A DNA stretch of 64,000 nt from Acinetobacter albensis (lineage in GTDB: Bacteria > Pseudomonadota > Gammaproteobacteria > Pseudomonadales > Moraxellaceae). The DNA lies in the NCBI RefSeq assembly GCF_900095025.1, contig NZ_FMBK01000001.1:186001-250000 (forward strand), written 5' to 3'. This document shows, piece after piece, positions 10,724 through 30,010 of the stretch (positions within the stretch are counted from its first letter, which is position 1; each line of letters begins with the position of its first letter). The notes beneath the pieces were generated by a model. It searched no databases. It saw only the letters and a list, made by a program, of their open reading frames with translations, and was not told the origin of the DNA. The position numbers and the translations under genes are program-made.

Positions 10724-10746
10724 CAGTTTTATATTAAATTATAGAA

Positions 10747-10777
10747 AGGTGTCACTTAAAGGTGACACCTTTTTTTA
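10747..10777 (+). terminator. Intrinsic terminator after the 9515-10723 gene
   Basis: The perfect 9-bp stem AGGTGTCAC / GTGACACCT is followed by a run of Ts starting at 10770. Confidence 0.9.
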
Positions 10778-10782
10778 TAGAA

Positions 10783-10801
10783 GTGACACTTGTATGACAC
10801 C
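10783..10801. promoter_or_regulatory. Repeated TGACAC sites upstream of the AlpA-like gene (possible operator)
   Basis: Two direct copies of (G)TGACAC at 10784 and 10795 follow the terminator stem, which itself contains GTGTCA and TGACAC. Four copies within about 55 bp, directly upstream of the small regulator gene, look like a control site. This is inference. Confidence 0.35.
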
Positions 10802-10853
10802 TTAGATAATTTGTTTTTATGCACTAACAATATTTAGCCATGTAGGTGCATAA

Positions 10854-11069: not shown

Positions 11070-11072
11070 TTC

Positions 11073-11456
11073 ATGACTAAAACACAAATTAAAGCCATTG
11101 CCTTAAATGCCAGCCGTCAACTCAATGCCGTGGCAAAGGACATCTACAATCGTGATTTAGTGACAGCACATAATCATGGCCAATTAAAAGATACATCTAC
11201 CACTTTAGATGACCTATACGGCGTATTAGATACTCAGTACCAGAGAAGTCTTAAAGCTGGCATTGATGAACCTATGGAATACACAGAGCTGGTTAAAAAA
11301 CGCATTGATGCCCTTGCCGAGTACATCCGCCCTGCACGTCTTAAAACTATTCACATATCACCTAAACATATTGTTCAAATGCTCGATGTTGAACAGCAGG
11401 CTATGCATCATCTGGCCACTTTATTAGATGCAATCAACATAGGGGACAAGGTATGA
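11073..11456 (+). CDS. Hypothetical island protein (127 aa)
   Basis: Mostly helical, charged and soluble, with no cysteine, signal peptide or membrane segment. I do not recognise a family. It lies 3 bp after the AlpA-like gene and its stop overlaps the next start (ATGA at 11453-11456), so it is translated as part of the replication/regulation operon. That tight coupling is the main evidence it is a real gene. Confidence 0.75.
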   Translation: MTKTQIKAIALNASRQLNAVAKDIYNRDLVTAHNHGQLKDTSTTLDDLYGVLDTQYQRSLKAGIDEPMEYTELVKKRIDALAEYIRPARLKTIHISPKHIVQMLDVEQQAMHHLATLLDAINIGDKV

Positions 11457-12136
11457 ATCAATTAACCATGCCAGTATTAACCATGTCTAGCCGTGATATT
11501 GCAGAGCTGACTGGCAAAGAACATAAAAATGTAATTAGGACCATTAAAGATTTATTAGGTGCTGAAATTTTAGACGCTCAAATTGAGCCACTAAAATTTG
11601 AATACCGTGGCCAGTGGTTTGATTACTACGAACTCAATAAACGTGACAGCCTGATTCTAGTGGCACGGTTATCACCTGAATTTACTGCCCAAATTGTCGA
11701 CCGTTGGCAAGAGTTAGAACAACAGACTAAACAGCTTAATGTTGATCTAAATAGCCCTCAAGCTCTACGCAAGGCCTTACTTGAATATACAGAACAGGTC
11801 ATTGAGCTTGAACATAAAAATATTGGTTTGGAAAAGTCGATACAAACCATAACTCAGACTCCTTCAGGTGTGAAATTTCAACAGGCATGTAAGATTCTGA
11901 ATATTAAACAGCCCATTCTCGCGAATTGGCTTCGTCAGCATAGTTGGGACCGGATGCTAAACAACACCCGGGCATCGACCTACTACAGTCAGGAGCGTGA
12001 CTATTGTGAAACCAAGTATGAGGAAGTAGCCAGAATACGCCCTAATGGTGATCCGTATACCTTTACAAAAATTGAGTTTTTCATTCTGCCTAAAGGCATG
12101 CAGGTATTGGCCAAGTTTTTTGGCAAGGTAGAATAA
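11453..12136 (+). CDS. Rha-type regulator with C-terminal KilAC antirepressor domain
   Basis: A 227-residue, two-domain phage-type regulator. Residues 8-95 match the Rha domain (SSRDIAELTGKEHKNVIRTI, then a tyrosine-rich strand and YYELNKRDSLILVARL). Residues 115-227 resemble the phage antirepressor KilAC domain (FQQACKILNIKQP, NWLRQHSW, ending PKGMQVLAKFF). A coiled-coil linker lies at 85-125. Such proteins counteract repressors or modulate lysogeny genes in phages and satellites. The start overlaps the preceding stop by 4 bp. The domain calls are good; the target is unknown. Confidence 0.85.
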   Translation: MNQLTMPVLTMSSRDIAELTGKEHKNVIRTIKDLLGAEILDAQIEPLKFEYRGQWFDYYELNKRDSLILVARLSPEFTAQIVDRWQELEQQTKQLNVDLNSPQALRKALLEYTEQVIELEHKNIGLEKSIQTITQTPSGVKFQQACKILNIKQPILANWLRQHSWDRMLNNTRASTYYSQERDYCETKYEEVARIRPNGDPYTFTKIEFFILPKGMQVLAKFFGKVE

Positions 12137-12138
12137 GA

Positions 12139-12537
12139 ATGAATACACGTTCATTTGCAATGTTCGTTTCTTATCGAAATGAACGTTGTAATTCAGCAAT
12201 ATCTAAAGCATTAATTTTAGGAATTTTCATCTTAGGTCTTGAAAGCTGTGATGTGCCTAGTTATGCTAAGGGCGTTCACCCTCATGGTGAATTAGCTTTG
12301 GTCGGCTATAAACTCTCAACAGGCGCACAGTCCGCAAGGGCTTTTTTTGTGCGTGAAATCTCTATGCGTTCGCATGTTATGGTGAAGCTGGAGAGGGACA
12401 TATTTATATGTGCAGGTCACCTGTTGAGCCTGTCGACCAACCCTTTTCAGCTTTGCCACCCTCATTTGGTCGTGAATGGCAAAGCTCCTTTAGTTCAACA
12501 GGAGCGCATTAATCATGCCTACACAAACTCATTCTAA
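12139..12537 (+). CDS. Ash/Icd-like ORF of P4-type satellites (may mainly be an RNA region)
   Basis: This 132-codon frame starts 3 bp after the previous stop and overlaps the next gene by 23 bp. Its middle (YKLSTGAQSARAFFVR, then MVKLERD, then TNPFQLCHPHL) follows the pattern of Ash/Icd-like proteins in P4-type satellites (recalled, weak). In P4 that region also encodes the CI immunity RNA. Here the DNA contains two notable inverted repeats: CGTTCATTT/AAATGAACG (12148-12185) and a nested hairpin at 12420-12502. It may be a peptide gene, a regulatory RNA or both. Confidence 0.45.
   Translation: MNTRSFAMFVSYRNERCNSAISKALILGIFILGLESCDVPSYAKGVHPHGELALVGYKLSTGAQSARAFFVREISMRSHVMVKLERDIFICAGHLLSLSTNPFQLCHPHLVVNGKAPLVQQERINHAYTNSF
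12420..12502 (+). promoter_or_regulatory. Nested long hairpin upstream of the 12515 gene
   Basis: The outer arms CCTGTTGA (12420-12427) / TCAACAGG (12495-12502) enclose a perfect 10-bp inner stem AGCTTTGCCA (12449-12458) / TGGCAAAGCT (12477-12486). The outer arm overlaps the AGGAG ribosome-binding site of the 12515 gene, so folding could control translation or processing. P4-type satellites use RNA structures at this position; the parallel is inference. Confidence 0.55.
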
Positions 12538-12826
12538 TAACACATCTAAAACTTATGATGCTGGTGACATGGTGGATGCCTATTCACTTGCCTATGAACA
12601 AATGGCTGACACAAGTGTAATGCTAGGGGCTATTGCTAATGAATTTAAACGCACCAAAGAATACCTAAGTAATGTCTACAATATCCCTGAGTCATGCTTT
12701 AACGACCTAAAACGCCTCATTGCAATCAGCAATACTATGATTCAAGAATCTGCTGAATTTAATCAAGCTCAAGAACAGAAATTCGAAATAGAATGGGAAG
12801 CAAATAAAAAGGCGGTGTCACTATGA
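12515..12826 (+). CDS. Hypothetical island protein (103 aa)
   Basis: A soluble helical protein with no recognised motif (TYDAGDMVDAYSLAYEQMAD at the N-terminus, acidic C-terminus). The start follows AGGAG at a spacing of about 10 bp, and the stop overlaps the ATG of the helicase gene (ATGA at 12823-12826). Translational coupling to the DUF927 protein suggests a role in the element's replication or its control. No function can be named. Confidence 0.75.
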   Translation: MPTQTHSNNTSKTYDAGDMVDAYSLAYEQMADTSVMLGAIANEFKRTKEYLSNVYNIPESCFNDLKRLIAISNTMIQESAEFNQAQEQKFEIEWEANKKAVSL

Positions 12827-15294
12827 ATAACACCGCCCAAAACTTTCAGCATGACCTTGATAAGCCTAGCAATATTTTAGCGCAATGCACCCTATTTAAA
12901 CAACAGGAAATAGCGCATTTAAACCATTCAATCATTGAGCGTTTTGGTAATCCATTACAGCCGATCTATGTTGATCAAAGCCATATAGAGATAGACGGTA
13001 TGAGCTACGACCAACCTTTAATTTTGCCTATCGTGAACGGCCAATTAGAGATTGTTCAATGTGCTGTATTACAGGATGCAAAGCGTGTTTCTATCATCCC
13101 CGATGGATTGGCCAAAGGCTTTGCAAGCTATGGTGATTTTGACCAGGATAAACCTGTCATTATTACCCACAACCTTGAGACATTTTTTAAGATTGCTCAA
13201 ACCGGTTACGCCGTTGTATTAGTGGTACTCCCTATCCTATGCAATGCTAAACAAACAGCACTTAAGCCATTTGATTTTGAGCAAATTCAATTTGTGATTA
13301 AGCAGTTATCACAGGCAGGATTCAAGCAGCTCTATCTACCAGTTCGCCCTGAACATATTCAGCTTGAAGCATTCCAAAGCCTAGAGAAGAACACACCAGT
13401 CCGATTATTGAATCAGTATCAAAAGATCATGGATGCTGAATTTCTGACTGAGCTATTAAAAACTGACAGCAAAGAGGAAGTCACTGCTTTTCTTGATGAA
13501 GCGATAGAGCAACTACCTAAACTGAGCTTTTTGCCTAAAGGCCACTTGGCCAAGCCTTTTAAAATGGATGACGGCGCATTTCTGCATATTTTGGACAATG
13601 GCCTCTACCTGATTAAAGAAAAAAGAGATGAGGAAGGCCAACTTAAACAGACACGGACGTTTATCTGTCATTCTGCCATTATTTTAGGTGAAGCACGAAG
13701 CCTCAATAATGACAATTGGAAGCGTGTTCTACAGTTCCATGATAAGGACAATACACTGCACCGGTTGTTAATCCCTTATGAGCATTTCATGGGTGAAGCA
13801 CAGGAAGCTTTAAAGATTATTGCCAATCATGGCCTGATGCCTCCACGCCAAGCCTATAAGAAAAATGTATTCATTAACTACATTCAAGACTACCCGATAG
13901 AGCAACGCTTTCGGTGTGTCGATCGTGCAGGATGGCATGGCTCTTGTTTTGCCACACCCAATAAAACGTATGGCAATAGTGAAGATGAGGAACTACTTTT
14001 TCACAGTGACAGTAAAAGCCCTTACACCGTATCAGGGAGCTTTGAAGAATGGCAGGAACTTAGCCGGTTAATTGAACCTCATGCTTTAGCTGTACTGGCC
14101 TTCTCCAGTGCCTTTTCTGGCCAACTGGTTTTGCCTTTAGGTGCTGAAAGTGGCGGTTTTCACATCTATGGTTCATCGACCGATGGGAAAAGTACCGTGA
14201 CCAAAGCATCATGCAGTATATGGGGTAATCCTAAGCATATCTCTAAGTCATGGCGCACCACGGACAACGCCTTAGAGAATGAAGCAGAGTTAAGAAACGA
14301 TAGCTTTTTAAACCTGGATGAACTACGCCAAGCAGTACCGAAAGCGGTGTCTGATATTGTCTATATGCTGACTGGTGGACAAGGCAAAGCCCGAAGTACC
14401 AAGGCCGGTAAAAACCGCGATGCCAAGCAATTTAGCCTTATGTATACCTCTACGGGTGAAGTGACCCTTGAGGAGCATTTGCGCCGTGGCAGTATTGAAC
14501 TGGATGCAGGGCTATTACTCCGCTTTGCACATATCCCCAGTGATGCAGGTAAAGGATACGGCGTATTTGACTGTATTAACTATGGCACAGCACCACAAGA
14601 TATTGGTAACCGCATTAATGAATTGGCATCACAGCACTATGGCCATGCAGGAATTAAATGGCTGGAATATCTAACCCAAGATAAAGACGCAGTCATGCAG
14701 AAAGCCCAAGCCTTACTGGATAGCTTTGTTGAACAGCACACTCATATCAAGAATGGGCAAGCTAGCCGTGTTTTACGCCGTTTTGCACTTGTGGCCACTG
14801 CTGGAGAACTGGCCACACAAGCAGGCATCACAGGATGGACACAAGGTCGTGCATTTGAGGCAGTAGCATACTGCTTTAACACTTGGCTGGGTAATCTAGG
14901 CAATGGCGAAAATATGGAAGAAACTAAAACCCTTGAGCATATTAAGGCATTTTTTGAGGCCAATGGCACAAGCCGTTTTGAGGATCTAACCGTAATCAGG
15001 CAAGCAGACGGTGAGGTCATACGCCCACGTATAAATAACCGTGTCGGCTACTATGATCCTGAAGATAAAGTTTACCTGGTATCCCCGACCATGTTTAAAA
15101 AGGAAATGTGTATCGGAATGAATGAGGCCAGTGTAAAAAAGGCATTGATCAAACATGGCTGGATTAAGGAGTTCATAGAGGGTGATAAAAAGCTCTATGT
15201 GAAGAAATGCAGTAATAATCTACCTGATGGTACACGGCCTAGAATGATGCATTTCAGCGCAGAAGCCATGCAGAGTCTAGATAATGAAACCTGA
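12823..15294 (+). CDS. DUF927-type helicase/primase of a mobile element
   Basis: An 823-residue replication-type protein. The N-terminal third (about 70-200) resembles the toprim-like region of element primases (IIPDGLAKGFASYGDFDQ, PVIITHNLETFFKIAQ). The DUF927 ATPase domain occupies about 250-620, with Walker A GSSTDGKST at 450-458 and a Walker B-like FLNLDELRQ near 495. This family replaces the P4 alpha protein in many integrative elements, acting as helicase and often primase at the element's origin. The C-terminal part (about 640-800) has a winged-helix look. It ends 16 bp before an iteron cluster that is a plausible origin. Confidence 0.85.
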   Translation: MNNTAQNFQHDLDKPSNILAQCTLFKQQEIAHLNHSIIERFGNPLQPIYVDQSHIEIDGMSYDQPLILPIVNGQLEIVQCAVLQDAKRVSIIPDGLAKGFASYGDFDQDKPVIITHNLETFFKIAQTGYAVVLVVLPILCNAKQTALKPFDFEQIQFVIKQLSQAGFKQLYLPVRPEHIQLEAFQSLEKNTPVRLLNQYQKIMDAEFLTELLKTDSKEEVTAFLDEAIEQLPKLSFLPKGHLAKPFKMDDGAFLHILDNGLYLIKEKRDEEGQLKQTRTFICHSAIILGEARSLNNDNWKRVLQFHDKDNTLHRLLIPYEHFMGEAQEALKIIANHGLMPPRQAYKKNVFINYIQDYPIEQRFRCVDRAGWHGSCFATPNKTYGNSEDEELLFHSDSKSPYTVSGSFEEWQELSRLIEPHALAVLAFSSAFSGQLVLPLGAESGGFHIYGSSTDGKSTVTKASCSIWGNPKHISKSWRTTDNALENEAELRNDSFLNLDELRQAVPKAVSDIVYMLTGGQGKARSTKAGKNRDAKQFSLMYTSTGEVTLEEHLRRGSIELDAGLLLRFAHIPSDAGKGYGVFDCINYGTAPQDIGNRINELASQHYGHAGIKWLEYLTQDKDAVMQKAQALLDSFVEQHTHIKNGQASRVLRRFALVATAGELATQAGITGWTQGRAFEAVAYCFNTWLGNLGNGENMEETKTLEHIKAFFEANGTSRFEDLTVIRQADGEVIRPRINNRVGYYDPEDKVYLVSPTMFKKEMCIGMNEASVKKALIKHGWIKEFIEGDKKLYVKKCSNNLPDGTRPRMMHFSAEAMQSLDNET

Positions 15295-15309
15295 AACCTA
15301 TATTAATAA

Positions 15310-15570
15310 GGTGGACGTAGTGGACAAGGTGGACATAGCAGTAATATTGAAATCTAATTTATTGTTATATATAGGTATTATTATGTCCACTTTATATGAA
15401 TATATCTATTTTAATAGGTGGACACGATTCAATGCAATCTATTCTGTCCACTTCATCTATTTTTTATGTCCACCCTTTTATGATGCAAATTGATACATAG
15501 GTGGACGGTATTATTTATTTAAAATCATACAGATAATTACCAATGTCCACTTTGTCCACCATGTCCACCT
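15310..15570. repeat. GTGGAC iteron cluster, candidate replication origin
   Basis: Eleven copies of GTGGAC or its complement lie in 260 bp. Three plus-oriented copies at exact 9-bp steps (15311, 15320, 15329) open the cluster. Three minus-oriented copies at 9-bp steps (15544, 15553, 15562) close it. Five more lie between (15384, 15418, 15445, 15467, 15501) in very AT-rich DNA. P4 alpha protein binds iterons of the type GGTGAACAG, so GGTGGACA next to a helicase gene fits an origin (inference). The remaining bases up to 15698 hold no gene I can support. Confidence 0.75.
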
Positions 15571-15698
15571 CAAAACACACACATATATGAGCCAACAGGA
15601 TAAGAGCAAAATAGCTGGCAGGAAAGAAGATCTTAAGGAATACTGCTCCTGTAACATACATAGATAATTAAGTGCAAAATTACTCAATTTCATTGATT

Positions 15699-18600
15699 TT
15701 AATCTTCGGCTATTTCTTTTAACCTTCTCCATGATGGATGGTTTTTAATAGTTGGTTTCGCTGAAATTAATTTCTCTAATATGTCCTTCAAATAATGATC
15801 ATAATGTTCAATTCTTGAACCTATTACTTTATCTAATAATAAAAGAATTTCTTCAGGATATTTTTCTAAAAGGAAAACCTTATCATCTGTGACCAATCTG
15901 AACATAAATAAGGATCCTGAATCTATTTTTCCTAAATAGGGCATTACATGTTTATGAATATCTACAAAACTATCAGGTGTTTCTAAAATTAAATTTAGTA
16001 ATCGTTCAGACGTTCTTGAATTTTGAAATCTTATTTCTTTAGGCCAAATATTTTTAATAAAATGTCGTCCAAATGTTGCCCAGTTTTTTTGTTCAGTTAC
16101 TACTTTCTGTAACACCCACAAGGTATGTGAGAGCATATCATTATCAAAATTTCGGATCATATTTCTAAGATCAATATCAGAATAATATTTAGCTTTAGGA
16201 TATGACCAGTAACTTACAATAACGAGATATGTAGCTAAGTTATTTTTTAACTTTTCACTACCAAGCCATTCAGTTTTATTTTTAAACAATGAAGTTATAT
16301 AAGGCTTTATGATTAATGCTGCTTTTGGGGGAGGTGTCTCAAGCATTATTCCATGCCAAACAGATTCGCTTACTGGGTTCTCTATATTTAAAAGTGGAAT
16401 TAAATTAAGTTCAGTCCATTGTTTATAATGATAAAAAATGAATTTAAAACGATATGCTATCATCACTGCCGCATGATCAGCTCCTTCACCAACACTATTT
16501 AATGCTAATTCAAATCTTGAAAGATAATTTTTTCTACAAATCTTAGGGTCTAATTTCCAAGCATTAAAAGTTGAAAATATTGAATAAACTAATTTACCAA
16601 TAGGTGAATTCAAAGCATGATCTAAAGTTTTTCGAGATAAATTTATAACTTTTCCTCCTCGTTTAACTTCACCGATAGAACTTTTTGTTGCATCTGGACC
16701 TATTGTATTTAGTGAATTGAAAACATAATCCCAGACTTGCCAAAATAGTCCATGATTTGAAATACAGGTATTTACAAGTGTCTCATCAATCCATCTAGAT
16801 AGACTGAAGCGACAATTAAAAATCACTTCATTTGGTAAAAGAAATATTGCATTAGCCACAATTAATTTTTCTTCTAGGGTTGTACTTTCAGGAATATTTT
16901 CAAATAACTGCTGCCAAAAATCTTCACGGAAGTTACCCAACTCAAGCTCTTTTAAAAGTATGTTTAGAACATGTTGAATATTTTTTTGTATTAAACCAAT
17001 AAATGGTCTATTTTGTTCAAGAACTACACTCCTCTCATTCTCAATTTTTTTAATTTCATCCAATAATTTTGTTGAATCTGTTATTAGCCCTAAATCAAAC
17101 ATATCTATAGATGTATTAGTCTTTACTAAACCTGAAATAGCACCAGGAATAAATGGTTCTTCATCTAAAAAACTGTTCTTCCATTTATCAGATGATTTTA
17201 TTTTTAATAAATCTTTTTTAGCTGATTCTGATAAACCTATTTTCGAATTACGAATTTGATTTAGTAACCGCCCAGTATGATAAATTCTTCTCTTTTCAAA
17301 TAAGTCGTCAGCGTAATCTTTATTATTTGGATAGTATCTTATAATCTTATTTTCGATAATTATGCGATCTTGCTCAGGTATTTTATCCCATTTTTTTGAA
17401 ATAAATTTAAATAGATCCGCCTCTAGAACTGAGCTCCAAAAAAAATCATCAGAGAAGTTTTCGATATTTTTTCCGATATCAAATTCATGAATATTTTGAG
17501 AATACATCCATACAAATAATCTTAAACGATTGAAAATAAATGAATCATTTTTTGGCCATTCTTTAGAAAGCGCATAAATCTCCTTTTCATCTATCTGAAG
17601 TTGCCTGTTAATCAAATGGCTTAACCAAACAATGATTTTTCCAGTATTTTCATAAGCATCTCGCATTTCATTATCAAAATCCTTAAGAGCTATTATGGGA
17701 TATTCAAAATTTAAAAATGAACTAACAGTTGTAGAGGTGTGTTGAAGCAATTTTATATATTTAAGTAATGACACTACGAGGATATTGATAACATTTATTA
17801 ATGAGTTTTCGTGGACATTAATAGAATCATGACTAAAACCAATAAATTGAGTTTTAAAATTTATCTTTAGATTCTCATCTTCTTCAGTGTTCAAATAGGA
17901 GATATATGATAAATCACTACATACTCTCAATGTTGGTTCAAGTAATGACTCCAGATCCTTTAAGTTTGACTCAGTAAATACATTGCCATTTTTCTCTACT
18001 ATAAATTTTAATTCATACCAAGTTATTGTAGGTTGTCTTTCTAATAGCTTATGACTTAATATTATTTTTCTGAAAAAAATTAATTTATTCTCAGAAAATG
18101 AATTAGGCTCTTTAGTAATTCGCTCTTCAATTTCACGGGTCATTAATGGATGTAAGTTATTCTGATTGGCGACCCACCATATACCTGCAGGTTGTTCAAT
18201 AACTTTTACGAGCCATCTTATTAAACTTGTAATTCTTGAGTTTACAGCCCATAACCTTTGATATCGTAAATTTGATATTCTTTCTCTTAGCTTACCTGAG
18301 TGCTCAGTATTTAAATTATCAATGAAATCTTCACCAACATTATTTATTAAATGATTAGGAATTAATTCTAAGTCTGAACGAATAAAATCTGTATCTATCC
18401 CATATAAATCGATAGGATCTAATATAAGATTTTGACCAGTTTGATTTTTTACGTTTTTAAGTTTTCCTAACCTGATATATTTATCAAAAACATAAATCCA
18501 TTCTGCTTTTGGGGTGGGCTGAAATAATTGAAACTTTTGAGCACCTTTAAATGTTGAAATAAAATTGGCAACCTGTCCTCTCTCAAATGCTTCTAAATCT

Positions 18601-19487
18601 TTTGGGCTTTTTTGACTAAATTCAAAAATGTGAGTATTCCACTTATCATCATCTCCCGCATATTTTGCCCATTCTGTAATTGTATCCCATAGATCATCAT
18701 GATTAGGGTATGAAATACCTATAGCACCAAGCTGAGCCCACTTTTGATCAATTTTGCTTTGCTCTCCTCGTTCAAAGGCATATATCTTATTTTTATTGTC
18801 CGAATTTTCAGAGTTTAGTCCCTCAAGTAAATAACGAACTAAAGTATCATCTCCCGAATAACCAATTAATACGACTGTACGGCGTGTCAATAGATTTGAT
18901 AAAAATCTTGTTGCCCAACCATGGGATAAATAAGCACTACCAAAGTCTTGAGATGAAACAATAAGATTATTAGGTTCATTTTTCTTTGGATCTATCCATT
19001 TACCATGTAAGTAAACAATGCCTGATAATGGATCTTTAGATTTTAGATCTGGTAAATATGGTGGAACAAAAGATTTTACTTTCTTATCCACTTTCTCAAA
19101 AAGTAGATCAAAGTTTGTTGTTATAAGAAATGGTTTCTTTTCTTCATTTATCGAAAGTTTTAAAAGATTTTCATGATTCCTTAGTAATGGAGTTTTTTTG
19201 AGTTTTAGCTCATTTAATAAGACAGAATCAACAATCTCATCACCATAAGTTCTTTTTAAGGCTGTAAATGTTCTATCGAATTGAGAATTAAATAGTAATT
19301 GTGAAATCTCATTATTTTCATCATCTAGTGCATGTAATTCTTCAGCAACTTTTTTCGTTAAACTATAAAAAGTAGGTAATCCAGCTGGAACCGAAACCCC
19401 CGCACCACAGAAAAATAGAAGTTCACCATTTTTTTGTGCTTCAATTAATTCATCGGGAATATTAGGACCAGTTTTAGTAAAGCGCAT
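15699..19487 (-). CDS. Large SIR2-domain protein, probable anti-phage NADase
   Basis: A 1262-residue protein. Residues 1-270 form a SIR2 domain: NAD-binding GAGVSVPAGLPTF (28-40), TTNFD (123-127) and YLHGK (159-163), giving the expected catalytic Asn125 and His161, then LIGYSGDDTLVRYLL. The remaining ~990 residues are helical, Leu/Ile/Asn/Lys-rich, without zinc cysteines or a P-loop I can see. This layout matches defence-associated sirtuins (DSR-like), which deplete NAD+ when phage proteins are sensed. Start ATG 19487; a TTG 12 bp upstream is less likely. It is convergent with the replication operon, and its low GC marks it as cargo. Confidence 0.85.
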   Translation of the reverse strand: MRFTKTGPNIPDELIEAQKNGELLFFCGAGVSVPAGLPTFYSLTKKVAEELHALDDENNEISQLLFNSQFDRTFTALKRTYGDEIVDSVLLNELKLKKTPLLRNHENLLKLSINEEKKPFLITTNFDLLFEKVDKKVKSFVPPYLPDLKSKDPLSGIVYLHGKWIDPKKNEPNNLIVSSQDFGSAYLSHGWATRFLSNLLTRRTVVLIGYSGDDTLVRYLLEGLNSENSDNKNKIYAFERGEQSKIDQKWAQLGAIGISYPNHDDLWDTITEWAKYAGDDDKWNTHIFEFSQKSPKDLEAFERGQVANFISTFKGAQKFQLFQPTPKAEWIYVFDKYIRLGKLKNVKNQTGQNLILDPIDLYGIDTDFIRSDLELIPNHLINNVGEDFIDNLNTEHSGKLRERISNLRYQRLWAVNSRITSLIRWLVKVIEQPAGIWWVANQNNLHPLMTREIEERITKEPNSFSENKLIFFRKIILSHKLLERQPTITWYELKFIVEKNGNVFTESNLKDLESLLEPTLRVCSDLSYISYLNTEEDENLKINFKTQFIGFSHDSINVHENSLINVINILVVSLLKYIKLLQHTSTTVSSFLNFEYPIIALKDFDNEMRDAYENTGKIIVWLSHLINRQLQIDEKEIYALSKEWPKNDSFIFNRLRLFVWMYSQNIHEFDIGKNIENFSDDFFWSSVLEADLFKFISKKWDKIPEQDRIIIENKIIRYYPNNKDYADDLFEKRRIYHTGRLLNQIRNSKIGLSESAKKDLLKIKSSDKWKNSFLDEEPFIPGAISGLVKTNTSIDMFDLGLITDSTKLLDEIKKIENERSVVLEQNRPFIGLIQKNIQHVLNILLKELELGNFREDFWQQLFENIPESTTLEEKLIVANAIFLLPNEVIFNCRFSLSRWIDETLVNTCISNHGLFWQVWDYVFNSLNTIGPDATKSSIGEVKRGGKVINLSRKTLDHALNSPIGKLVYSIFSTFNAWKLDPKICRKNYLSRFELALNSVGEGADHAAVMIAYRFKFIFYHYKQWTELNLIPLLNIENPVSESVWHGIMLETPPPKAALIIKPYITSLFKNKTEWLGSEKLKNNLATYLVIVSYWSYPKAKYYSDIDLRNMIRNFDNDMLSHTLWVLQKVVTEQKNWATFGRHFIKNIWPKEIRFQNSRTSERLLNLILETPDSFVDIHKHVMPYLGKIDSGSLFMFRLVTDDKVFLLEKYPEEILLLLDKVIGSRIEHYDHYLKDILEKLISAKPTIKNHPSWRRLKEIAED

Positions 19488-19699
19488 TTTAATTCTCAAC
19501 TTTATATAAAAGCATATATATTTTTAAATAATTGTTTTATAACATATATATTTCATTTTAAATTACATGATTTACTATTAAAATAATTACTATTTTTTCA
19601 TATTTAACTAGTAAAAATTTTATTCACGTGCTTTTAGAATTATCCAATATTTTGGCATACTGAACCTCTCCCTTAATAAAAAATTGATCCCAACGGTAG

Positions 19700-19939
19700 T
19701 AGCATTACCACATTCAGCGTGGCAACCTCGGAACATTAGAAAGACAAGACCACTGGAGAACGCAAAGAGGCTACGGAATCGCCACTAGTAACCGATTAGC
19801 TGAGATTGCCAGTAAGTACCTTAAGAAAGGCGGAAAGGTTTATATAGAGGGCCCATTCCGTACACGTAAATGGAAAGACCAAAGCGGATCAGAAAAGGAA
19901 ATAACCGAGATTCGAGCTGATGTTCTGCAATTGCTTTAG
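19700..19939 (+). pseudogene. Truncated single-strand DNA-binding protein (ssb remnant)
   Basis: Reading in frame to the TAG at 19937-19939 gives RLAEIASKYLKKGGKVYIEG, then RTRKWKDQSG and TEIRADVLQLL, which is the centre and end of an SSB OB-fold. The normal N-terminus is missing: a stop at 19700-19702 and a degraded GNLGTLERQDHW segment precede it, and the acidic C-terminal tail is absent. Element-borne ssb genes often accompany replication modules, so this is probably a decayed accessory gene. A terminator follows. Confidence 0.75.
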
Positions 19940-19948
19940 TGCTTATAT

Positions 19949-19972
19949 GCCCCTTTGATGGGGCTTTTTTAA
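19949..19972 (+). terminator. Intrinsic terminator after the ssb remnant
   Basis: The stem GCCCC / GGGGC is followed by six Ts. Confidence 0.8.
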
Positions 19973-20026
19973 TAATGGTGTATTTTCCTCATTTAAACTA
20001 ATATCTCTTTAAATTTAGGGGGATTT

Positions 20027-20719
20027 ATGACTAAGAAGACTTTAGAAGAAAAGATAAAACAGGTCGGATTTTGGACTTTTGGAGGAATATTTTGGTACTT
20101 AGCGATAGCTTTCTTTCTGAAAAGCAATTACCCGATTTACGATTATGACTTTAATCGATCTATTGCATATGACGTTATAAAGGATGCTCTAACCTTAGCT
20201 GCAGCCTTTCTTGCTCCAGTTGCTGCATTTATTCTTTTCAGTGATTGGAGGGTGCAACATATAGAAAAGAGAAAAGAACAAGAAAGTGAAGTTATCTTAA
20301 GCAGAATTAATATCTTATTGGAAAAACTTGCTCAATTATATGTAAGTGTTTGCAGAGATGAAAATATTAATAATGAAGCAGCATCATTAGATATTGTGAA
20401 ACAAGAATTTCTTATAACACTGGAATGTATAGCATTGGAAAAAATTACAGAGAAGTCATTTGGACCAGATTCTGAGGCAAAAGATTTTTATAATGCTTCC
20501 AAAAAAATACTTAAAGAAATAAATCAAATTGGCAAAAAACTTAAAGAAGATGAAGACTTTTTCCAGAGATATCCACTATTGGAAAAGAATATTGATCGGT
20601 TTGGTGATTCCAGGGAGTCTTATTTAAGCAGACTTAAAAGACAGCGCGAGTCAATTGAAAGTCTCAGCTTGGAAATAAGTAACTTAACCGAACTCTCAAA
20701 AGGTCTAAGAGTGCTGTAA
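20027..20719 (+). CDS. Hypothetical membrane-anchored coiled-coil protein (230 aa)
   Basis: Two N-terminal membrane segments (about 12-32 and 50-70) are followed by a DWRVQHIEKRKEQE juncture and about 150 residues of charged helix with coiled-coil character. That topology puts the long domain in the cytoplasm. AGGGGGATTT gives a good ribosome-binding site for the start at 20027. I recognise no family. It lies between the SIR2 gene and another membrane-anchored helical protein, so it is probably island cargo; a defence role is possible but not shown. Confidence 0.75.
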   Translation: MTKKTLEEKIKQVGFWTFGGIFWYLAIAFFLKSNYPIYDYDFNRSIAYDVIKDALTLAAAFLAPVAAFILFSDWRVQHIEKRKEQESEVILSRINILLEKLAQLYVSVCRDENINNEAASLDIVKQEFLITLECIALEKITEKSFGPDSEAKDFYNASKKILKEINQIGKKLKEDEDFFQRYPLLEKNIDRFGDSRESYLSRLKRQRESIESLSLEISNLTELSKGLRVL

Positions 20720-20849
20720 TATATTTATTTTTTCAAATTACCTTGCCCTTTTTATGGACTCCGAAAATTCAGAATTAAGTCGTACTGAATCTCAATATAT
20801 CAGTTAATATTTTCTATAAATGAAATTGTAAAATACTTAAGAAAATAGC

Positions 20850-21638
20850 ATGAACCAAAAAAATCAAATAGTTTCTGAAACCATACAAGCCGCGAATATA
20901 CAAGCTGATGCAACGATATTTGCAGCAAGTATAGCCGCACTAGGCCTTATAGTCGGTTTGGTGGTTTCATGGTATACGGCAAAACATATACAAAGAAAAA
21001 CCTCAATTGATGAGATAAGAAGAAATACATATTTAAAAACCGTTGATTCTTACTCTCGAATGATAGCTTCCTTATCAATGATTACAGTAGATCCTAAAAA
21101 GACATCCGATGAATTTAAACCAAGATTTGAAAATTTTGTTGCAGCGATTGATCAGTCAATGTTTGTTTGTGATACTAAAACTAAAGTTAAGCTCGTTGAA
21201 TTTTATGAAATTTTCTTTACAGAATTAAAATTAATTGAAGATCCAATATCAAGTATTTTTGATGCCTCACAGGATTGTGAAATAGCTTACAAAACCTATT
21301 TTAAAATTATGAGTGAGTTAGAGCCAATTAAGTCTCGCTTAGTAGATCTTCAGGTTGAAGATCCTGCGCAGAAAAATATTGAAAATGCATTACAAATATT
21401 TGACGATAAATTAAATTTTTCTCATAAGTATTTACAGGCTGCACAAGATAAAGGCGATTTAGTTCAAGAACTTTGCACCGATGCAGAACCAAAAATTCAT
21501 GACTTTATGATTAAGATAAATACAAAAGCAGTAGATGTAATGTATAGCTTAAGACAGGAAATAGGTATAAAAACCGATATAAAAACTGATAAGGAATTAA
21601 ATGAAAGGCTAAAAAAACTCGTATTAAAAAGTAAATAA
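20850..21638 (+). CDS. Hypothetical membrane-anchored helical protein (262 aa)
   Basis: One strong membrane segment (about 24-44, FAASIAALGLIVGLVVSWYT) is followed by a basic stop-transfer stretch (AKHIQRKTSIDEIRR) and about 200 residues of helical cytosolic domain. The layout TM-WYTAKHIQRK is seen in many small cargo proteins of unknown role. It starts 130 bp after the previous gene on the same strand. Like its neighbour it is AT-rich. No function can be named. Confidence 0.75.
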   Translation: MNQKNQIVSETIQAANIQADATIFAASIAALGLIVGLVVSWYTAKHIQRKTSIDEIRRNTYLKTVDSYSRMIASLSMITVDPKKTSDEFKPRFENFVAAIDQSMFVCDTKTKVKLVEFYEIFFTELKLIEDPISSIFDASQDCEIAYKTYFKIMSELEPIKSRLVDLQVEDPAQKNIENALQIFDDKLNFSHKYLQAAQDKGDLVQELCTDAEPKIHDFMIKINTKAVDVMYSLRQEIGIKTDIKTDKELNERLKKLVLKSK

Positions 21639-21808
21639 TCATTTTTATAGTTTTTATTCTCATTATTAAGGCTATTAGTTCTTAGCAAAGTAGTTGCACT
21701 AATCTGTAGTCTGGAAAATAATTAAATACTTGGAGTGAATCCTATCAGGATTGATTAGCTATAGATCCAATCTTGAGATAAAAATACTAAACTTTAAAGG
21801 AATTAAAG

Positions 21809-22018
21809 ATGAAACAAATATTTAAGGTGTCTACAGATAGTTTAAGAAGTTGCCCTTATTGTCGCAATGTTGATGTGGGTGGTATTTGTTTTGAAAAAGG
21901 GATAAACCACATGCTGAGTGAACATAATTATCAAATTGAGCATATTGGCACCGAAACCATTGAAGGGGACCTAGGATTGTTTCATACAACAGTGGCAATC
22001 CTTTCCGTAGAAGATTAA
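21809..22018 (+). CDS. Small hypothetical protein (69 aa)
   Basis: Begins MKQIFKVSTDSLRSCPYCRN with one CxxC pair, followed by GGICFEKGINHML and a C-terminal acidic strand. AAAGGAATT upstream of 21809 is a usable ribosome-binding site and a terminator follows within 35 bp, which together support a real gene. The single CPYC could bind metal or be redox-active. No family recognised. Confidence 0.6.
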   Translation: MKQIFKVSTDSLRSCPYCRNVDVGGICFEKGINHMLSEHNYQIEHIGTETIEGDLGLFHTTVAILSVED

Positions 22019-22022
22019 AAAC

Positions 22023-22050
22023 AGCCTCCTTAACTTGGGGCTTTTTATTA
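22023..22050 (+). terminator. Intrinsic terminator after the 21809 gene
   Basis: The imperfect stem AGCCTCC / GGGGCT is followed by TTTTTATTA. Confidence 0.7.
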
Positions 22051-22343
22051 GCTGAATGGTCATTATCACCATGCAGATTCAATCACCAGTCATGGGTATT
22101 TGCACCACAACTGAATAAATGGCTTTAGATTGGTTTAGCCATCATGAAAATCATGACAACTGAGTCGATAGATAACGTGTCAATGCCTTAGACAGCTATA
22201 GATCGGTACAGTCTAATTAGACAAATCCTCTGACATCTAATTGTGCTGAGACAGTCATAAACCACTAAAAAACAACTCAATTGTTTTGACATTTTCACTG
22301 ACAAAAACGCCATGAATTTGGCTAGACAAGTCATATTAATTTA

Positions 22344-22450
22344 GGTTGACGGCATACGGCGTAAATAAGGCATTAAATTGTGCTTAAAGGCATATACAAA
22401 AAGGCTTTATCCTATTTTGTGAAATACCAATCCTGTCAACGTACGTTAAC
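22344..22450 (+). repeat. Tag module A (GGTTGAC / GTCAAC)
   Basis: 5' tag 22344-22350, 84-nt core, complements GTCAAC (22435) and GTTAAC (22445). The second copy has one substitution. Confidence 0.75.
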
Positions 22451-22627
22451 GTAAACAGCCAAAAATTTACCTGAACAAGGTATGACTTAAGTATTCTATT
22501 AAATTTCATACAAGCCTTATCAATCGAACATTACAGCGTATTTATATGTTTTTTATAAATTCCAATCCGTCCAAGTACGTCCAAGAAGAATCCGTATTTC
22601 ATACCAGATAAGCTTTATTCAATATTT

Positions 22628-22734
22628 CCTTGATGAAGCTCCACCATAAAACCACTAAAAACAGCTTCAAGGCCTTATCTACTGGGGATTGCAGCCGTTT
22701 TCAATAAGTGCCATTTCATCAAGAATCATCAAGG
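22628..22734 (+). repeat. Tag module C (CCTTGATG / CATCAAG)
   Basis: 5' tag 22628-22635; complements at 22717 and 22727, the second extended to CATCAAGG. The inverted ends extend to TTTCCTTGATG / CATCAAGGAAA. This copy has CA in place of the usual GT at the tag start. Confidence 0.8.
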
Positions 22735-22762
22735 AAAACGCTACATTCTGTCCTGTTAATTA

Positions 22763-22858
22763 GATATACAGCACCTACCAGTAAAACAAGCTGAAAAGCT
22801 GTGCTCGCAGGCCATTCACTCATACTTGAAAATGCTGTTTTGTATAGCTACGTATAGC
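22763..22858 (+). repeat. Tag module D, short type (GATATAC / GTATAG)
   Basis: 5' tag 22763-22769 followed by AGCACC, a 72-nt core, complements GTATAG at 22842 and 22852. One mismatch between tag and complement. Confidence 0.65.
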
Positions 22859-22898
22859 AAGAAATACCATTCACCTTGCAGAAAGCGCCGTATATTTT

Positions 22899-23064
22899 GT
22901 TATACAGGACATAAGCCATTTACCTTGACAGCACCACCCTAGAAAAAAGAAATAAAATGCACTCAGACCTTTATGAATAAAGTATCACAGCTATTTTCAC
23001 TAGGTTTTAAGAAGTAATATTTCGTCAAGGTACGTCAAGGTAAATCTGTATGACTACGTATAAC
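22899..23064 (+). repeat. Outer tag module F enclosing module E (GTTATAC / GTATAAC)
   Basis: The outer tag GTTATAC (22899-22905) pairs with GTATAAC (23058-23064); GTATGA at 23048 is the first, imperfect copy. Module E (22923-23040) with ends TTTACCTTGAC / GTCAAGGTAAA sits inside it. E has a longer core (94 nt). Confidence 0.75.
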
Positions 23065-23149
23065 TAAATTCAGGATTTAGAATCTGAAATTCACCATTAT
23101 GGATTTCAAATCTAATAGGGTGAAAACATACAGGCATATATCCATATCT

Positions 23150-23166
23150 GTATCACTACGTATCAC
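23150..23166 (+). repeat. Tag pair G (GTATCA, TAC, GTATCAC) without a local 5' partner
   Basis: Two copies at 10-bp spacing. The complement GTGATAC is not upstream but occurs 145 bp downstream at 23311-23317. Confidence 0.6.
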
Positions 23167-23184
23167 AAAACATCCTTAAATCTT

Positions 23185-23292
23185 GCATGACAAGGTACGT
23201 TAATAAATACCTTATAAAAATGCTTCAAAGCTTTGCTACCATTGGGTTTAAAACAAATTACCAAAACTACGCTTTGTCAAACTACGTCAAAC
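23185..23292 (+). repeat. Tag module H, apparent chimera (GCATGAC / GTCAAAC)
   Basis: The 5' end TCTTGCATGACAAG is that of the module at 23620, but the 3' tags are GTCAAA (23276) and GTCAAAC (23286). The core is exactly 84 nt and contains TCAAAGC at the usual place. Confidence 0.65.
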
Positions 23293-23333
23293 AAAATCTC
23301 CCTAATTCTAGTGATACAAGAACTTCGTATTTT

Positions 23334-23428
23334 GTACGACGGCAAGCAATATAAAACAGTCTTAAAGACTTACTATCCTTGGCCTATAGCCCATTAATGA
23401 AAATAGGCTTTGTCGTTCTACGTCGCAC
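23334..23428 (+). repeat. Tag module J, short type (GTACGAC / GTCGCAC)
   Basis: 5' tag 23334-23340, 71-nt core, 3' tags GTCGTT (23412) and GTCGCAC (23422). The tag differs from the second complement at one position. Confidence 0.65.
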
Positions 23429-23452
23429 AAGAAAGGGAGAAATTTAGCTATA

Positions 23453-23611
23453 CGACACATCATTAATTTACCTTGACAGCACTCCACCCAAAAGCACCAT
23501 AAAAACTATATCAACGCCTTACTATATAAGCATTACAGCCATTTTATTAAAACTGCATTTCGTCAAGGTACGTCAAGGTAAATAAATCAATTCCGTGTCG
23601 CTACGTGTCGC
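23453..23611 (+). repeat. Nested pair: outer L (CGACAC / GTGTCG) around module K (CCTTGAC / GTCAAGG)
   Basis: Outer tag at 23453-23458, complements at 23595 and 23605. Inner module K is 23471-23578 with an 84-nt core and perfect doubled GTCAAGG tags at 23562 and 23572. K has almost the same ends as module E. Confidence 0.8.
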
Positions 23612-23619
23612 AAAATCTT

Positions 23620-23781
23620 GCATGACAAGCCTTTTGTATTTGTTGGACAAGGCAATCATAAAAGCACCTATAAAAATGCAGTCAAAGCCAAACTATACAA
23701 GGCATACAGCTATTATATTAAAACTGCGCTTCGTCCTGCTACGTCCAACAAGAAATATGGTTTTGTAATGTTACGTCATGC
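23620..23781 (+). repeat. Nested pair: outer N (GCATGAC / GTCATGC) around module M (GTTGGAC / GTCCAAC)
   Basis: Outer tag at 23620-23626, with GTAATG (23765) and GTCATGC (23775) on the other side; the arms extend to AATCTTGCATGAC / GTCATGCAAGATT. Inner module M is 23642-23749 with an 84-nt core, GTCCTG at 23733 and GTCCAAC at 23743. Confidence 0.8.
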
Positions 23782-23799
23782 AAGATTAGCCTTATTTTA

Positions 23800-23907
23800 G
23801 GTTGACGGCATACATGCTAAATCATCTGTAAAACAGTGGTCAGAGCTATAAGATGAAAGGATTTTGATAGTTTTATGGAAACCCTATTCCGTCAACGTAC
23901 GTCAACC
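23800..23907 (+). repeat. Tag module O (GGTTGAC / GTCAACC)
   Basis: 5' tag 23800-23806, 84-nt core, complements at 23891 and 23901. The inverted ends extend to TTTAGGTTGAC / GTCAACCTAAA. It has the same tag as module A but a different core sequence. Confidence 0.8.
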
Positions 23908-23925
23908 TAAATAGTCAAAATCCTA

Positions 23926-24033
23926 CTTAGACAATACTCATTCAAGAAACGACATAAAAGCCATGTCAAAGCCATACGTAGCAAACATCACAATAATCTG
24001 GCATTAATTTCAATCTGTCTAAGTACGTCTAAG
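23926..24033 (+). repeat. Tag module P (CTTAGAC / GTCTAAG)
   Basis: 5' tag 23926-23932, 84-nt core, complements GTCTAA at 24017 and GTCTAAG at 24027. Confidence 0.8.
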
Positions 24034-24048
24034 AATAAAGCCTTGTTT

Positions 24049-24110
24049 CATCAAGAATCATAAAGAAAAAACTTGGTCAGATTTAAAATCCATCCAAGTA
24101 CATCCAAGTA
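24049..24110 (+). repeat. Two tag pairs without clear 5' partners
   Basis: CATCAAG (24049) with CATAAAG (24059), and CATCCAAGTA twice in tandem (24091, 24101). Both keep the 10-bp period. Confidence 0.55.
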
Positions 24111-24115
24111 TTTTT

Positions 24116-24212
24116 TGTTTTACAGCATATTTATATAAATTGCTATGTATGTCAGTTACAGTAAGGCATACAGTGTTTTTCTACATATCAATCCGTAAAA
24201 CTACGTAAAACA
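24116..24212 (+). repeat. Tag module R, short type (TGTTTTAC / GTAAAACA)
   Basis: 5' tag 24116-24123 followed by AGC, a 71-nt core, complements at 24195 and 24205. Confidence 0.75.
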
Positions 24213-24230
24213 AAACAGCCTTAAATTATT

Positions 24231-24377
24231 CTTTACGGCGTTTATTTAATTCCCTTGATGGGCCACCAGTAGAAAGACCATTAAAATTGCTTAAATGCTA
24301 TATCTAGCAAGGTTTACCGCTATTTTTAGGGAATCCCATTTCATCAAGCCCCCCCAGTTTTGTATAGCTACGTAAAG
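24231..24377 (+). repeat. Nested pair: outer (CTTTAC / GTAAAG) around module S (CCTTGATG / CATCAAG)
   Basis: Outer tag CTTTAC 24231-24236, complements GTATAG (24362) and GTAAAG (24372). Inner module S is 24253-24348; its second tag copy is replaced by a run of C. Confidence 0.7.
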
Positions 24378-24395
24378 AATTTTGACCTTATTTTT

Positions 24396-24503
24396 GTCTT
24401 ACAGCACCACATTAAAAAGACCATCAAAACCATGCTCAAATATACACACAGCAAGGTTTACGCCGTATTTAACGAATACCGATATTGTAAGACTACGTAA
24501 GAC
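24396..24503 (+). repeat. Tag module T (GTCTTAC / GTAAGAC)
   Basis: 5' tag 24396-24402 followed by AGCACCAC, 84-nt core, complements GTAAGA (24487) and GTAAGAC (24497). It is one of the cleanest modules and closes the island part of the array. Confidence 0.8.
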
Positions 24504-24660
24504 TAAATGTCAGGTTTTGACAGGTTCAAAGCGTTTGAGCTTCGACCATTGGGGGAGCATCTATCAGGCTTATTGGTATTTGAAATGCGGATATAAAATC
24601 TAACCCTTTTACCTAGGGGGAGATATGAACAAACTTACTGACATTTAAAACGTGACCAAG

Positions 24661-24870
24661 TTAATTCAGCATTCCAAATGTGGATTTTGAATCTACTCCT
24701 ACCTGAGCCACCAAATAGAGGAGCAGTGAAAAAACACAGTAAACCGCTATATAGATCGGCCAATAATCAAGAATGAAAACGCAGTGGAGTGTATCAAGGG
24801 GGGTATTTTTACCTCTTGAGTTCATCACCCAGTACGACAACCAAACCCAGAGAAAATAGGCTAGCAACAA
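24661..24870 (-). CDS. Possible small membrane protein (69 aa)
   Basis: It has two hydrophobic stretches (residues 1-16 and about 36-54). The frame starts with TTG at 24870 and has no clear ribosome-binding site, so it may be chance. It lies between the repeat array and the island end. No family recognised. Confidence 0.25.
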   Translation of the reverse strand: MLLAYFLWVWLSYWVMNSRGKNTPLDTLHCVFILDYWPIYIAVYCVFSLLLYLVAQVGVDSKSTFGMLN

Positions 24871-24876
24871 GTAATT

Positions 24877-24894
24877 TGTACACTGTCATGTACA
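24877..24894. repeat. 18-bp palindromic motif, right copy
   Basis: TGTACACTGTCATGTACA, identical to 8084-8101 and in the same orientation, 70 bp inside the right boundary repeat. Confidence 0.7.
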
Positions 24895-24964
24895 CTAGGA
24901 TTTTTATATAAAATTTAAACAATATAAAACATACACTTATAATATTTGTTCAATTGTCGCCACC

Positions 24965-25050
24965 GGCAAAATATGCCTAGTTTTGGAACTAAAAGGCTTA
25001 ATCCTAAAGGGGTTAAGCCTTTTTTTATGCCTGAATATAACCAAACATAA
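24965..25050. repeat. Right 86-bp boundary repeat (attR side)
   Basis: A direct repeat of 7975-8060 with four substitutions, including the ssrA terminator hairpin (24994-25027). Upstream, CGCCACC (24958-24964) matches the tmRNA 3' end but is followed directly by the repeat, lacking the 24 nt that lie between them on the left. It marks the island's right end. Confidence 0.85.
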
Positions 25051-26328: not shown

Positions 26329-27259
26329 AGAACATACCTTTAATAATTGAAAAATAAAAATATTGTAAATACGTCTACAGCAAATTCCATGCCACGCTAG
26401 AATTGGGTTTATTGGATAATTTACATGAAAAATGCACTATTTACTTACAAACATCCGATCTAATCAGGTGCATAAATACTTAAGTGACTACAAAACCTGC
26501 TATCTATTCCCTCAAAGTTAAACATGTTGTTTTGTCATGCTCCGTATCACAAAATAACTTTAAATCTTGCATGACAGAGTATTTATAATTTTGTTAAACG
26601 AGGTGCGTTAAAAAAGACATATAGAAACCACTTCAAAGTATTGCTATCAGTGGATTTTAGCTATTTCATTATAATTATATTTTGTCCTACTACGTCCAAT
26701 AAGACACCGTTGTTTCGTCATGCTACGTCATGCTACGTCATGCTACGTCATGCAAGAAATACGCTTGTGTCCTACTCAATCTTGACTGGATTTTGAATCC
26801 GTTCGAGTAGGTCCTAGAAGAAATGTAAAAAAGAAGCTTTTCATTAACATAAAACGTGAACGCTTTTTATCTAAGTCATAATCACGATAAAATTTTACAC
26901 AGGTGTGACACGCGTGTAATAGGCTAGCTATGATTTCAGATGTACAAGTAAAAGCTTAAAGATACTCACTGATATACTTCCACGTGAAGATTAAGAGTAA
27001 AAAGTAAGATCATTCAGACATAATTTTTTTAATTACATAAAAATCAAATACTTGTATTAATATTTAAATTTTAAAATCCACAAAGATAAATTTTGGACTC
27101 AAATTAAGTGAATTCAATCAATATATAAGCCCTGTTTTTTATAACGAAACACATCTAAAAAGAAGAACTCACGGAAATTAGAACTGATGTGTTTCAATTG
27201 CTGAAATGGATATTTTAATTCGATATTTTATGGAATAGAAATTGCATTTTAAACTAAAA
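26329..27259. repeat. 930-bp gap with further tag modules (26534-26753); otherwise no gene
   Basis: Outside the island repeats. GTCATG/GTATCAC form a tag pair at 26534-26550. An outer module starts with GCATGAC (26569) and ends with four tandem GTCATG copies at 10-bp steps (26717, 26727, 26737, 26747). It encloses a module at 26593-26700 with an exact 84-nt core. GTCCTA copies at about 26776 and 26810 look like decayed tags. From 26850 to 27259 I see only AT-rich sequence. Confidence 0.65.
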
Positions 27260-29529: not shown

Positions 29530-30010
29530 TAATAATACTTTTAAGTCGGTTAAAAAAATAAAAAAGGTCAATTTAATAAGTTTTATCTAAGATTATTTAA
29601 AATTTAATAAAAATATTGTTGAATGCTATTATCAATAAATATGAAAAGTAATGTTGTACGTTTATCTGAGCATTTTTGGGTGTATAGCACCACTAATAAA
29701 AACCCCTCAAAAGCTGTGCTATTAGACTATTCAACCATAATATGAAAATGCCTTTTTTACTACGTGTAACAAGAGATACCAATTTTTTTCCTGTATAAAG
29801 TGCGCTATATTTTGTTGTACTAGATAGAGGGAATTTATCTTGACAATCCAGTCTTTAAAATCACATTAAAACAAAATTAACTAGCACTAAATAGTCTGTA
29901 TCCCTGTATTTACTCTCACTTTTAAAATAAAAAACGAGAACTTATAATCATTTATTTTTTAAATTTCACTCACTAAATTCTTAAATCAACATCAATTATG
30001 ATTTATAAAA
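29530..30010. other. Intergenic region with a weak Fur-like site and a decayed tag-module trace
   Basis: On the minus strand, GATAATAGCATTCAAC (about 29617-29637) partly resembles a Fur box upstream of the receptor gene. At about 29755-29775, TTTTACTACGTGTAACAAG resembles the 3' tag pair of the array, with further AT-rich similarity. I see no gene. Confidence 0.4.

Follow-up and report, generated by a model that had tools for sequence, protein, structure and literature searches.

What could a series of short DNA modules be for, if they share one architecture and yet each carries a different tag? This question is raised by a window of 64,000 nucleotides (the whole stretch analysed, 64 kb, to which all coordinates refer) from the genome of Acinetobacter albensis, in which an array of such modules lies between 22344 and 24503. 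Each module is built of a 7-bp tag in inverted orientation, a core, and two direct copies of the complementary tag at a 10-bp step. Single copies of the same layout occur in phage genomes over the start of the gene for a DUF2280 (PF10045) protein, which is followed by the gene for the large terminase, and the array itself forms the end of an integrated island that we read as a P4-like satellite. The array is probably a collection of pared-down cos-type sites for phage packaging that would make the DNA of this satellite a substrate for the terminases of many helper phages.

Architecture of the array

A strict scan for a 7-bp tag, the identical tag 10 bp further on and the inverted tag upstream, with zero mismatches, gave 13 matches in the window, all on the plus strand and several of them overlapping, versus none in five base-composition shuffles of one strand. 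A relaxed listing gave 19 right ends (tag-NNN-tag) between 22435 and 24503. A left end could be assigned to 17 of these 19, three of them poorly (m01, m02 and m08, with five of seven bases). The shared architecture with varying tags claimed in the preliminary description is thus borne out. Spaced stretches amounting to 390 kb of another genome of the genus held no module and one chance look-alike. The modules are listed below with their tags (inner/outer right copy where these differ) and with their relation to the tag pairs of phage DUF2280 sites.

m01, 22344 to 22451, plus strand: GGTTGAC / GTCAACG-TAC-GTTAACG; 38 nt at the right end 89% identical to a phage GTCAACC site
m02, 22470 to 22585, plus strand: GTCCAAG twice, exact phage pair; left tag poor
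m03, 22628 to 22734, plus strand: read as CCTTGAT / ATCAAGA-ATC-ATCAAGG; near the phage pair of two ATCAAGG, scored as a non-match
m04, 22763 to 22858, plus strand: GTATAGC twice, exact phage pair
m05, 22923 to 23040, plus strand: GTCAAGG twice, exact phage pair; inside m06
m06, 22899 to 23064, plus strand: GTATGAC/GTATAAC, exact mixed phage pair; surrounds m05
m07, 23150 to 23166, plus strand: right end only, GTATCAC twice, exact phage pair; left tag not found
m08, 23185 to 23292, plus strand: GTCAAAC twice at the right; left tag GCATGAC a poor match
m09, 23334 to 23428, plus strand: GTCGTTC/GTCGCAC, one base off the phage pair GTCGTTC/GTCGTAC
m10, 23452 to 23611, plus strand: GTGTCGC twice, exact phage pair; surrounds m11
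m11, 23471 to 23578, plus strand: GTCAAGG twice, exact phage pair
m12, 23620 to 23781, plus strand: GTAATGT/GTCATGC; surrounds m13
m13, 23642 to 23749, plus strand: GTCCTGC/GTCCAAC, exact mixed phage pair
m14, 23800 to 23907, plus strand: GTCAACG/GTCAACC, one base off a phage pair
m15, 23926 to 24033, plus strand: GTCTAAG twice, exact phage tags; the phage linker is CAC
m16, 24092 to 24108, plus strand: right end only, ATCCAAG twice, exact phage pair
m17, 24117 to 24211, plus strand: GTAAAAC twice, exact phage pair
m18, 24230 to 24378, plus strand: TCTTTAC / GTATAGC-TAC-GTAAAGA, exact mixed phage pair, left tag likewise exact; surrounds a CTTGATG element
m20, 24396 to 24503, plus strand: GTAAGAC twice, exact phage pair

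The cores had been described as a fixed unit of 84 nt, present in seven island modules and in one outside. The seven are there (six from the scan, plus m08 at 23185); an 84-nt core outside was not confirmed, the core of the module at 26569 being 141 nt long. Nor is the core fixed as such: in modules with a perfect left tag its length is stepped (71/72, 83/84, 92-94 and 138-142), single lengths at 105-127 appear when one left-tag mismatch is permitted, and there is no conservation of core sequence between modules. The steps look as if helix spacing mattered. A fit to 28 tag/length classes, among them a class at 96 that stems from a prophage site in locus L054, was best at a period of 11.4 (R 0.87) versus 0.59 at 10.5; as a statistic for regular helical phasing this is weak, because of the fitted period itself and because the modules share descent. 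The core motifs TCAAAGC and TACAGC were also seen by eye in phage sites, at another offset and inside DUF2280 codons.

Modules may lie within one another (22923 inside 22899, 23471 inside 23452, 23642 inside 23620, and the CTTGATG module inside 24230). When the two right copies are unequal, the left tag is closer to the outer one in five of the seven window modules concerned (m06, m12, m13, m14 and m18), to the inner one in m01 and to neither in m09. The complementarity of left and outer right tags in most modules, together with z values at or below -2 in three of eight modules folded, would suit a family of structured RNAs with a covarying end stem, which had been among the earlier suggestions. 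That reading is now very improbable: the inner tag covaries too, though a stem does not need it, the predicted folds differ among the eight modules (z from -0.3 to -3.0), and no stretch of the array attains the cut-off of an Rfam family. At the phage sites, moreover, the left tag lies inside DUF2280 codons, and pairing with the outer tag is full in only 15 of 39 distinct phage tag sets.

Single sites at phage DUF2280 genes

Matches to the array elsewhere in the genus, in prophages, are single modules with a core of about 96 nt that spans the start of a DUF2280 gene, with the large terminase gene next to it. Scans of IMG/VR with four DUF2280 queries gave at least 309 loci, which with one phage record made 310 examined, 16 of them unreadable; among the loci listed, 289 of the 294 readable ones have the same layout 11-13 nt before the DUF2280 start, and the core measures 95-97 in 280 of those 289 (ties in core length being broken towards 96). 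By a protein-family search, 88 of 149 genomes of the genus have DUF2280. From this search 90 loci were examined and 76 were readable, and each of the 76 has a prophage site with a score of 9 of 12 or more, where the start with the highest score was taken and some starts are off by codons; a few sites have another linker or weak tags. Pooled with a pattern scan, the collection comprises at least 431 phage sites and at least 40 inner/outer tag pairs, with a core of 96 and a left-tag match of at least five of seven in 376 sites. When the core is 96 and the distance to the start 12 nt, the left tag coincides with codons 29-31 of the DUF2280 gene. A pattern scan for RTCAAGG placed 66 of the 80 matches listed at a DUF2280-like start and two at contig edges, and the pattern also matches contigs in which no such gene follows.

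Some of the prophages (L512, L516, L518 and L526) carry a second DUF2280 lineage whose tags start with AT (ATCTAAG, ATCCAAG, ATCAACG, ATCAAGG); the same tags are also found in arrays. In phage PDP110P1 (L553, filed as Lambdavirus) GTCCAGT-ACA-GTCCAGT stands 12 nt before a DUF2280-like gene; the layout, here with another linker, may therefore reach beyond the genus. Once single copies had appeared at terminase genes, integron attC sites, clustered regularly interspaced short palindromic repeats (CRISPR), miniature inverted-repeat transposable elements (MITE) or repetitive extragenic palindromes (REP) and group II introns were dropped as readings of the layout. The tiny mobile palindromes suggested in the preliminary description are not supported either, since the modules examined lie in satellites, near one (at 26.5-29.8 kb), or, as single copies, at terminase genes of phages.

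Many tag pairs of the array are also those of phages. The family-search set is free of tag seeding and is therefore the cleanest test: 9 of the 19 window pairs recur exactly in it, whereas a null in which tag columns were shuffled among modules averaged 2.3 and peaked at 8, none of 5000 shuffles reaching 9. With the IMG/VR sites added, 11 of 19 are exact (null mean 2.4, maximum 7) and four more pairs are one base off; with the tag-directed RTCAAGG search added, 13 of 19 are exact, because GTCAAGG phages are common in that search. Taken together, the arrays hold 88 pairs, a number that includes noise, and 27 of 40 phage pairs, among the sites listed, recur there; 2000 shuffles gave 4.6 on average and never more than 11. 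Eight mixed pairs are common to phages and arrays, such as GTCCTGC/GTCCAAC and GTATAGC/GTAAAGA, and the recurrence of such rare unequal pairs is hard to explain by chance.

Several lines point to the DUF2280 protein as a putative small terminase. The gene after it is a large terminase by PHROGs in the two types tested, 279 of 295 loci (among those listed) have a forward open reading frame (ORF) of 350 aa or more downstream, and DUF2280 is annotated as 'terminase small subunit' in phage Magia; in PHROGs, DUF2280 proteins are filed under unknown function. A structural model built on 18 sequences (mean predicted local distance difference test score 73, predicted template modelling score 0.46; helices 6-18, 22-33 and 39-43) returned small terminases in the top 11 Foldseek rows, those of Sf6, G20c and P74-26 being the best, with weak E values of 0.36-2.2. 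VIA gave Z 5.3 to the small terminases (TerS) of G20C and E217, tied with phage protein 2ao9 at 5.4. An alignment of DUF2280 against the sequences of solved structures gave nothing below E 0.027.

The tag varies together with particular residues of this protein. Among close DUF2280 proteins (75-99.5% identical, from 244 distinct sequences, the pairs not being phylogenetically independent), residues 38, 40, 42, 43, 44, 50 and 51 differ in 44-75% of the pairs whose outer tags are unlike (385 pairs) and in 0-7% of those that share a tag (1439 pairs), and the regions past residue 80 have no such excess of substitutions. Set against the model, these positions would belong to a predicted helix-turn-helix made of helices 22-33 and 39-43. 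Residues 29-31 are not independent evidence, as they coincide with the left tag in the DNA. Of the explanations offered in the preliminary description, it is paired recognition by a protein that agrees with a tag triplet repeated at phage DUF2280 genes and changing with these residues.

A site at the DUF2280 gene presumably lies where a packaging (cos) site is expected, as judged from gene order and from some record ends. The linear BUCTT20 record ends in ATCCGTC and starts with CAAGTACGTCCAAG, so that its break falls within the first tag, and the Eva record, which is flagged as circular, has its first base 5 nt beyond the outer tag. The Magia record breaks 15 nt before terS, with printed ends that hold no tag repeat, and many other phage records start elsewhere than at the site. 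Phages of the fEg-Aba01 type are reported to have 10-nt 3' cohesive ends of a different sequence (PMC7354433).

The host satellite and its relatives

The array is the final part, before the right attachment (att) repeat, of a 17-kb island (7975-25050) inserted at the transfer-messenger RNA (tmRNA) gene. Its main features are as follows.

7599 to 7957: tmRNA gene
7975 to 8060, plus strand: attL, a direct repeat of about 86 bp at the 3' flank of the tmRNA gene, with a few mismatches to 24965-25050
8083 to 9366, plus strand: tyrosine integrase (Pfam Phage_integrase, E 2.5e-25; Arm-DNA-bind_3)
12375 to 12463, plus strand: C4 antisense RNA (Rfam RF01695, 62 bits, cut-off 45)
12823 to 15294, plus strand: DUF927 primase/helicase-like replication protein (Pfam DUF927, E 3.5e-63; PHROG DNA primase and primase/helicase)
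15699 to 19499, minus strand: SIR2-domain protein, Dsr1-like cargo (Pfam SIR2_2; PADLOC Dsr1, E 2.8e-88, best stretch residues 5-341)
24965 to 25050, plus strand: attR, the second copy of the att repeat, directly past the array

The P4-like traits are the tyrosine integrase with att repeats at an RNA gene, the alpha-like primase/helicase and the C4 RNA; a Rha/KilAC-type regulator is also among the island genes. Genes for psu, sid and delta/ogr were not found among the part of the island ORFs scanned with Pfam. The iteron regions of P4 are bound by its alpha protein, and an array in a satellite with its own primase-like protein might accordingly be taken for iterons of the satellite's own origin, bound by the DUF927 protein or the integrase. 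This is scarcely credible: 18 different tags are more than a single protein would need, tags of the array are found again at phage terminase genes, and there are DUF927 loci without arrays.

The preliminary description would have been undercut if no other genome carried such modules, but of 149 genomes of the genus 41, the own one included, match the array by blastn, part of the matches being single prophage sites. Three records of a plasmid collection match, all from A. baumannii, and in an order-wide draw 2 of 115 genomes do so, namely the own genome and one with a 27-base match. A distant blastn against 50,697 phage records gave no match to the array, presumably because the shared part is short. 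Twenty-two array loci were compared: the window, 18 other genome or record stretches chosen for their matches, a contig end (L074) and two viral contigs (L564 and L589). Two further stretches (L044 and L049) hold no convincing array and no island gene.

Within each of the 22 loci the exact-pair sites and strict modules lie on a single strand, which is that of the relatives of the island genes in all 21 loci that hold such genes; L036 has just one match to the island genes of the window and L074 has none. Almost all outer tags differ within an array, with 18 different tags among the 22 counted in the window (4 of these 22 from the cluster outside the island), 12 of 14 in L034, 12 of 13 in L053 and 4 of 5 in L046.

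A proposed library of packaging sites

In the mechanism that we propose, the small terminase of a phage (the DUF2280 protein) would read the 7-bp tag in three places, once inverted on the left and twice in direct orientation, at a 10-bp step, on the right, close to the presumed cut of the genome, with tags differing between phage lineages. The satellite holds about 20 such putative sites with 18 different outer tags, in the same orientation and beside the attachment site. When a helper infects or is induced, its terminase would find the matching site on the replicated satellite DNA and the body of the satellite would be packaged leftwards from it. The single orientation, the roughly one site per tag and the place at the att side fit unit-length packaging by the terminase of any helper.

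These same features weigh on an alternative in which the sites are decoys that soak up the small terminases of many phages and protect the host or the satellite, no packaging being involved. Decoys would account for many specificities gathered in an island with a SIR2/Dsr1-like gene, and degraded cores might not matter to them. A decoy array, however, needs neither a single orientation matching the island genes, as found in 21 of 21 loci, nor a place at the att end like that of the P4 cos, and many copies of one site would serve it better than what is mostly one site per tag; we consider it unlikely.

It could also be the case that the modules are functionless relics, cos regions of past phages left through recombination. 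Decay or an unfitting left tag in m02, m07, m08 and m16, and the relic-like modules outside the island (at 26531-26835 and 29683-29780), speak for this. Against it, tblastn detects no remnant of a DUF2280 gene in the array (best E 0.56), even though this gene overlaps the phage site, the tags are kept while the cores are no closer to those of same-tag phages than to those of others, and the same arrangement is found across many satellites. We regard relics as decidedly unlikely and, from sequence comparison, take the array to be a mimicry of phage sites rather than a copy. The modules outside the island, which at 26531-26835 include tandem GTCATGC-TAC repeats and at 29683-29780 are decayed module-like sequence, may be left over from a satellite that formerly occupied the tmRNA site.

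Several observations weigh against a library of packaging sites. The last 20 nt of the cores are 34% identical to those of phages with the same tag and 33% to those with other tags, and satellite cores, mostly 71-94, are shorter than the 96 of phages; part of the sites may therefore be weak or inactive. Some modules are nested, decayed or devoid of a left tag, and the best core-length period is 11.4, not 10.5. Twenty DUF927 loci of the genus, picked because no array match lay nearby, have no array within about 15 kb downstream (a single GTATAAC pair in L533 is the only pair among them), so that the array is not universal to such satellites. Some of the arrays (L034, L035, L038, L039, L564 and L589) are near relatives. 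The genome of A. albensis itself has no DUF2280 match, the covariation of tag and protein can also reflect linkage, and the phage collection is not wholly independent, as its first loci came from blastn with the array and the IMG/VR set is partly tag-seeded and biased to relatives of the four query proteins.

Among known systems, P4 resembles the island in its integrase, primase, C4-type RNA and defence cargo near the packaging signal at the att end, and its cos lies in the defence-hotspot region between psu and int (PMC9122126, PMC8628076). It differs in having one core cos common with P2, whereas here about 20 sites match many DUF2280 phages, and in psu, sid and delta, which are not among the scanned island ORFs. 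Among phage-inducible chromosomal islands, too, there are satellites that helper phages package by way of cos sites. In EcCICFT073 two cos sites are functional, and their cosB differs from that of the phage; SaPIbov4 has two putative ones (PMC6092414), and a conserved cos site of phage type is present in both SaPIbov4 and SaPIbov5 (PMC5052747). These have one or two sites, in contrast to the array of about 20 with its 18 outer tags. The DUF2280 phages of Acinetobacter (BUCTT20, Eva and relatives) share with the array the left tag, tag-TAC-tag and similar tag-adjacent bases (AGC behind the left tag and A-rich sequence behind the outer one, resembling the phage consensus), but their core of 96 lies over the DUF2280 start, while satellite cores have other sequences and are mostly 71-94. 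No report of an array of packaging sites was found in the accessible portions of the open-licence literature on satellites and their packaging. To the extent that those portions cover the known satellites, none of which exceeds two cos sites, an array of about 20 sites with many specificities would be a new form of satellite cos mimicry.

The array may go beyond a fixed set and be an evolving key ring, with one stripped-down address per terminase specificity, gained and lost between satellites, recording the phages in circulation, widening helper and host range beyond those of any known satellite, and perhaps titrating terminases; the case for and against this extension is about evenly balanced. 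As to how satellites find their helpers, the code may here be directly readable, tag for helper. At least 40 tag pairs and 244 distinct DUF2280 sequences would in addition make a data set on terminase-DNA specificity.

Such a code would allow one to predict the phages that mobilise a given island, here together with its SIR2/Dsr1-like cargo, a candidate anti-phage gene. Between this gene and the array (20027-21638) there are two adjacent genes that match phrog_7125 and phrog_13166, both of unknown function. The SIR2-domain protein has 1266 aa, the first third of which is Dsr1-like, and a protein 51% identical to it is encoded in another DUF927 locus (L050).

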